Assembly (NCBI RefSeq): GCF_903970205.1
Contig: NZ_CAJCHS010000065.1
Span: forward strand, 1-33,764
Source of the DNA: Nevskia soli
GTDB lineage: Bacteria > Acidobacteriota > Terriglobia > Bryobacterales > Bryobacteraceae
Direction: 5' to 3'
DNA: 33,764 bases
A model generated the notes under the pieces. It was not told the origin of the DNA, ran no database searches, and saw only the letters and a program-made list of their open reading frames with translations. Positions 2-470 of this stretch are shown one piece after another; position 1 is the stretch's first letter, and each line of letters starts with the position of its first letter. Both the position numbers and the translations under genes were made by a program.

Positions 2-187
2 CCCGCTCCCGATCCGTCGGTTAGAGAAGATACTTATACAGTCAAGCCGGGAGACAGCCTTTCTAAGATCAGCCAGGAATTTTACGGTCACCCGGGAGCC
101 TATAAAAGAATCTTCGAGGCGAACCGGGACCAGTTGAGAGATCCGGACCACCTTCGCGCCGGTCAGACTCTGAAGATACCGTTATAG
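2..187 (+). CDS. LysM-domain protein, 3' end only
   Basis: The open frame enters from the left edge and ends in TAG at 185-187, giving the last 61 residues. They form one complete LysM module of about 50 residues: it opens with T-Y-T-V-K-P-G-D-S-L, has the central K-I-S-Q-E-F-Y-G segment, and closes with L-R-A-G-Q-T-L-K-I-P-L. LysM modules bind N-acetylglucosamine-containing glycans such as peptidoglycan, so the protein probably acts at the cell wall. The rest of the protein lies outside the window, so its catalytic or structural role cannot be told. It ends 10 bp from the convergent selenoprotein-like gene. Confidence 0.85.
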   Translation, partial: PAPDPSVREDTYTVKPGDSLSKISQEFYGHPGAYKRIFEANRDQLRDPDHLRAGQTLKIPL

Positions 188-197
188 AGGCTTCACC

Positions 198-434
198 TCA
201 CGCGCCGGCGAGTTCAGTGCGAACCAGATCCACAACCTCATCCGGTGCTGGAAGGTGCCCGCTTTTCTGCTTCGAGTAGATCTTGCGGCCGTTGACGATC
301 ACGTCCAGCGATCCTGGATTGCCTATCCGCAGCCGGGTCGGCACACCCAATTCAGCTTCGATACGGGTTTTGAGGCTCACGGCCTCAGCTTTGATATCGC
401 CTCAAAAGAAACATCGTTTAATCTCAACGGTCAT
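198..434 (-). CDS. SelW/Rdx-family redox protein, putative selenoprotein with in-frame TGA
   Basis: Read from ATG at 434, the frame gives 78 residues if TGA at 404-402 is decoded as selenocysteine. The N-terminus is then M-T-V-E-I-K-R-C8-F-F-U11-G12, the C-x-x-U redox motif of SelW/Rdx proteins, where a glycine also commonly follows U. Downstream come the family's helix and strands (S-L-K-T-R-I-E-A-E-L-G, then L-D-V-I-V-N-G-R-K-I-Y-S-K) and the C-terminal helix with G-H-L-P-A-P-D-E-V-V-D-L-V. A start at the GTG at 380 would give a 60-residue protein without its first strand and both redox residues, so I prefer the read-through model. Proteins of this family have a thioredoxin-like fold and take part in thiol redox. 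Bases after the TGA can form a SECIS-like hairpin (separate entry). A Cys-to-stop mutation is the main alternative. Confidence 0.8.
371..404 (-). promoter_or_regulatory. candidate bacterial SECIS hairpin
   Basis: Starting at the TGA, TGAGGC (404-399) is complementary to GCCTCA (376-371). A shorter inner stem, GCT (389-387) with AGC (377-375), exposes a loop GAGGCCGTG whose GG lies 17 nt after the TGA. Bacterial SECIS elements sit directly after UGA and carry a GG-containing apical loop roughly this far downstream, so the geometry fits. The stems are short and I could not compute a fold, so this supports the selenocysteine reading without proving it. Confidence 0.45.
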
Positions 435-440
435 AGGCTC

Positions 441-470
441 AGTATACACTCGCAAGTTACTTGTAGCCAA
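441..470 (-). promoter_or_regulatory. sigma70-like promoter of the SelW-like gene
   Basis: On the minus strand, TTGGCT (470-465) and TATACT (446-441) are separated by 18 bp. The -10 box ends only 6 bp before the ATG at 434, and there is no clear Shine-Dalgarno sequence. If this promoter is used, the transcript would be leaderless or nearly so. Confidence 0.45.

Follow-up and report, generated by a model that had tools for sequence, protein, structure and literature searches.

Does a short reading frame at the end of an acidobacterial contig begin at the GTG where gene prediction would place its start, or does it begin further upstream and continue through an in-frame TGA that is translated as selenocysteine (Sec)? 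The original prediction, made from the nucleotide sequence, placed this TGA at the redox position of a SelW/Rdx protein and proposed a selenoprotein that automated annotation would truncate. The window, i.e. the whole stretch of 33,764 nucleotides that was analysed, is one contig (C65) of a 4.16-Mb draft genome of an uncultured acidobacterium, assembled in 455 contigs and 71% complete. Our analysis favours the longer gene. We put the probability at about 0.96 that it encodes a small SelW-like (Rdx family) selenoprotein, probably a redox protein, with Sec inserted at UGA 404-402 through SelB and a hairpin.

Gene structure and product

The minus strand of the window, read from 434 to 198, translates as MTVEIKRCFF-TGA-GDIKAEAVSLKTRIEAELGVPTRLRIGNPGSLDVIVNGRKIYSKQKSGHLPAPDEVVDLVRTELAGA-TGA. 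With U at the internal TGA, the product has 78 residues, starting with MTVEIKRCFFUGDIK and ending with ELAGA, and the gene (198..434), as delimited by its translation, a Pfam Rdx match and its homologues, is complete from the ATG start codon (434-432) to the terminal TGA stop (200-198). The internal TGA (402..404, minus strand), present in every member of the clade described below, would encode residue 11, the U of a C8-x-x-U11 motif; the codon that follows it directly specifies Gly, and the partner codon for C8 (411..413, minus strand) is invariant in the clade. The arrangement that had been predicted upstream of the GTG, an ATG and then C-F-F-TGA-G, is thus found as described, on the minus strand. 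The expected truncation is also seen: a standard ORF finder returns only the 60-residue frame 198..380, and a gene caller would likely take the GTG at 380 as the start. This GTG (378..380, minus strand) would encode Val19 of the full-length protein and lies inside the apical loop of the predicted Sec insertion element (SECIS).

A second contig of the same bin, C170, is 97% identical to positions 1-505 of the window and continues past the window's end. The two differ at 13 sites in 505 bp, five of them within the gene; the TGA is retained, and none of the differences falls in the 48 nt that begin with the TGA. C170 is strain variation at a contig end. A second gene copy or paralogue was considered and rejected, given the shared flanking LysM gene and the 97% identity.

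Conservation of the internal TGA

A first homologue search covered 121 genomes, consisting of the host genome and its relatives. Those relatives that carry a name in GTDB-based records belong to Acidobacteriota (Bryobacteraceae, Acidobacteriaceae, Terriglobia), and the family of the host was deduced from them. Three other genomes have UGA-containing homologues: two belong to the same family, with identities near 60%, and the third is less closely related. When 399 genomes of the class were searched with a profile, 59 homologous places were obtained, the weak near-threshold matches among them being partly inspected; 19 of these have no internal stop, and 40, in 37 genomes, have exactly one. That stop is TGA in all 40 cases, and neither TAA nor TAG was found as an internal stop among the homologues in the 399 genomes.

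Homologues in other genomes preserve the ATG with ten codons, the TGA and the frame that follows it, so that the upstream extension cannot be put down to chance, and the homologous sequence claimed for both sides of the TGA is confirmed. Six close sequences were compared over the ten codons that precede the TGA; summed over pairs, they differ 14, 5 and 70 times at the first, second and third codon positions, a sign of purifying selection on a translated segment. Coding sequence is thus conserved on either side of the in-frame UGA, as is required of a bacterial selenoprotein.

These data bear on two other explanations. If the TGA were a real stop, the functional protein would start at GTG 380, in agreement with the 60-residue frame given by standard gene calling, and the upstream similarity would be a relic; such a protein, however, would lose its first strand and both redox residues and would start within the SECIS loop, whereas the ten codons upstream of the TGA change in the manner of coding sequence and C-x-x-TGA with the preceding strand is kept in every subclade homologue. 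We regard this explanation as very improbable. The fragmented and incomplete state of the draft genome could also invite the view that the locus is a pseudogene, or that a TGC was misread as TGA in sequencing. Yet the TGA occurs in the two strain variants of the bin and in independent assemblies from other genera, no homologue carries TAA or TAG in its place, and purifying selection extends to both sides of it, which makes a pseudogene or an error even less credible than a genuine stop.

The homologues were also to be aligned in order to see whether related proteins have Cys at the Sec position. In a separate branch of the class (YCxxC) they do, and the seven Cys-type homologues among the fetched loci, all with TGC, form a branch of their own; in the window's subclade, no Cys version was found in the class sample. 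One sequence that aligns with the clade (L056, genome G361) reads TPLFPG at the CxxU motif and contains no Cys or Sec there, in a genome that possesses selB and tRNA-Sec. To judge from this sequence, the redox site may perhaps have been lost naturally.

Selenocysteine machinery

The presence of the Sec machinery had been proposed as a check on the prediction. In the host genome, selB was found with 364 bits over profile positions 1-578 of 581, together with a full-length selD (364 bits) that has Cys in its GGCASK motif, and a complete selC, the tRNA-Sec gene (C197:52-145; 77.5 bits), whose anticodon is TCA according to ARAGORN. The selA gene is represented by its C-terminal 148 residues, the last third, which run off the end of contig C370; truncation at the contig edge brings its score under the family cut-off, and the absence of the remaining portion is best explained by an assembly break and not by gene loss. 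In all 37 genomes with a UGA-containing homologue, selB was matched at E<=1e-50, three of these matches being weak (about 1e-55). tRNA-Sec was detected at E<=1e-11 in 33 of the 37, compared with 265 of the 399 genomes overall (66%), an enrichment with a Fisher p of 0.0016 when kinship is ignored.

The frame would also be open if TGA were read throughout the genome as an ordinary amino acid, e.g. Trp. Against such a reassigned code, TGA terminates this gene as well as three further long ORFs of the window, Trp is encoded by TGG 40 out of 40 times in five genes, and the homologues without Sec carry Cys, not Trp, at the position in question. A code change of this kind has next to nothing to recommend it. 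Taken together with the conservation of the N-terminal strand and of the C-x-x-U codon in relatives, where loss of the strand or of C-x-x-[CU] would have spoken against the prediction, the machinery genes support a likely selenoprotein, and the translation of the internal UGA as Sec, rather than as a stop, is well supported at the level of sequence.

A predicted SECIS hairpin

Further independent support, absent from the original prediction, comes from a SECIS-like hairpin. According to a published model, bacterial SECIS elements have a loop of 3-9 nt, a stem of 4-16 bp, a G in the first two loop positions, a distance of 16-37 nt from the UGA and a minimum free energy <= -7.5 kcal/mol (PMC13188914). 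The predicted hairpin of the window, UGAGGC-CGUGA-GCCUCA (371..387, minus strand), has a stem of 6 bp and a loop of 5 nt, is spaced 20 nt after the UGA and has an energy of -8.1 kcal/mol; its apical loop begins with CG, giving a G at position 2, followed by U. Each of these values lies within the limits of the model (PMC13188914); some relatives reach just -5 to -7 kcal/mol. When longer stretches were folded, other structures may win, either keeping the hairpin stem or competing with it.

A qualifying hairpin at <= -5 kcal/mol occurs in 36 of 43 distinct UGA homologues, against 13% of shuffled sequences and 25% of shifted controls, and in one of seven Cys-type homologues at -5 kcal/mol. Since the protein is also conserved across the hairpin, synonymous codons were randomised with the codon usage of the window. 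In the window's own clade, the hairpin was present at <= -5 kcal/mol in 14 of 14 sequences, compared with 22% expected under this randomisation, and the -8.1 kcal/mol of the window gene was equalled in 2.6% of its own randomisations; on its own, the window hairpin is modest evidence. In the alignment, the cells of the hairpin pair in 85.7% of cases versus 24-46% for slid controls. Pair 19-33 is G-C in most sequences and C-G in three; with the swap, CAG replaces GAG on one side of the stem, and CTG replaces its synonym CTC on the other; covariation is seen at this one pair alone. An Rfam search of the window gave no match, and we know of no general bacterial SECIS model in Rfam, so that this negative result says little.

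Fold, family and clade

The protein matches Pfam Rdx (PF10262) with 28.0 bits against a cut-off of 22.6, residues 2-72 aligning with positions 1-73/74 of the profile, and all 15 members of its clade match the same family at E<=1. It stays under the cut-off of both NCBIfam SelW models, TIGR02174 CXXU_selWTH (28.4 bits against 34.2) and NF041051; with a score under the TIGR02174 cut-off, it is filed under Pfam Rdx only. An AlphaFold model built from 50 aligned homologues (mean pLDDT 81.5) predicts a strand at residues 3-7 and a helix at 12-29, with the redox motif C8-F-F-U11, invariant in the clade, after the first strand. The nearest folds in the PDB are the SelW-related structures 2p0g, 2fa8, 3dex, 2ojl and 2obk and mouse SelW 2npb (TM about 0.8), and the 23 best matches of the predicted model are all SelW-related/Rdx structures or MIEN1 (TM by query 0.75-0.86). 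The model therefore points to a SelW (thioredoxin-like) fold.

In a tree of 50 homologues, the protein falls inside a 15-member [KR]RCxxU clade with support of 100/99; the YCxxC proteins and the YCxxU-NY proteins, the latter spread over many phyla, lie outside it. All 15 sequences have Sec and, in the alignment, one additional residue after U. The clade is firm; its age and branching order are not, owing to the few alignment columns and the arbitrary root. L076 (KRCVTU), from elsewhere in the phylum, is a further member by its motif.

Genomic neighbourhood

The gene is convergent with the C-terminal part of a LysM-domain protein gene (2..187, plus strand), which is a neighbour outside the system. 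No clear Shine-Dalgarno sequence was seen upstream of ATG 434. A sigma-70-like promoter match, TTGGCT-18-TATACT (441..470, minus strand), agrees with the consensus and is not evident upstream of the relatives' genes. As the match ends 6 nt from the ATG, a leaderless transcript may follow, though we offer such a start only as a weak guess from the sequence.

Neighbours vary among the relatives, with LysM in the window and M16 peptidase, FG-GAP protein, ferredoxin-like and aldehyde dehydrogenase genes elsewhere. An operon link in the window's own family was rejected on these grounds, and for the same reason no functional partner can be named. A recurring neighbourhood exists in another family of the class only (f11; L050-L053), where the recurring genes are threonine aldolase-like (Beta_elim_lyase), polyketide-cyclase-like and acyl-CoA dehydrogenase genes.

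Discussion

Bacterial SelW-like selenoproteins with CxxU have been known since about 2005 (PMC1088965, 2005; PMC1794560, 2006; PMC2398784, 2008). In the Sargasso Sea data they were the most abundant selenoprotein family, and in GOS they ranked among the most widespread; they have a CxxU motif and few Cys homologues (PMC1088965, PMC2398784). For Acidobacteria and SelW-like proteins together, the literature search retrieved the 2006 survey alone, which gives three families and four selenoproteins for Acidobacteria, unnamed in the part of the text searched (PMC1794560). What is new here is modest, a strongly supported [KR]RCxxU branch, for which no name was found in a small sample of the literature.

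By analogy with the known bacterial system, as described for SelA, SelB, SelC and SelD of E. coli (PMC1794560), SelB would bind the hairpin that closely follows the UGA and deliver Sec-tRNA(UCA) to UGA 404-402. The product would be a protein of thioredoxin-like fold whose redox pair, C8-x-x-U11, sits where the first helix begins. Its motif and fold suggest that it is most likely a thiol/selenol oxidoreductase, which would form and resolve a Cys-Sec bond with a thiol partner.

The protein resembles the known bacterial SelW-like proteins (PF10262) in its size, in a CxxU motif that opens the first helix, in an Rdx match over the cut-off, in the fold of SelW-related crystal structures, in a SECIS right after the UGA and in the scarcity of Cys homologues. 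It differs from them in having [KR]RC-x-x-U and one residue after U instead of YC-x-x-U-NY, in its position in the separate branch and in its scores below the TIGR02174 and NF041051 cut-offs. The Cys-type Rdx proteins of Acidobacteriota (YCTQCRW; L061, L064, L066-L070) belong to the same Rdx-like sequence family, but they have Cys at the Sec position and a longer C-terminus, form a separate branch and mostly lack the hairpin. Eukaryotic SelW and MIEN1/C17orf37 share the fold, and MIEN1 is the only chain in the PDB that a sequence comparison matched (2ljk, E 0.00025), although their identity to the window protein is about 20%; the eukaryotic SECIS, unlike the bacterial element after the UGA, is located in the 3′ UTR (PMC12013277). 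The residue inserted after U, the basic residues before C and the recurring neighbours in another family raise the possibility that the clade is more than an ordinary SelW variant, namely a distinct acidobacterial subfamily that uses Sec only and has a redox role of its own. We hold this proposal tentatively and consider it somewhat doubtful.

The locus is a clear example of a gene liable to truncation at the UGA by annotation, with a false start codon within the SECIS loop. It adds to Sec use in a class for which little is described in the searchable literature, and in which tRNA-Sec was found in about two-thirds of the sampled genomes. A SelW-like branch in which no Cys form was found is also useful for asking why Sec is kept.

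Another arrangement of the redox motif was observed in Planctomycetota, where a SelW homologue on contig JAQBVK010000056.1 (L036), whose gene ends at ~1479-1490, reads MKVSITY-TGA-GQ-TGA-NYLPRASG. With TGA at both redox positions, it could possibly encode a UxxU protein, or reflect a sequencing error in a single metagenome assembly.
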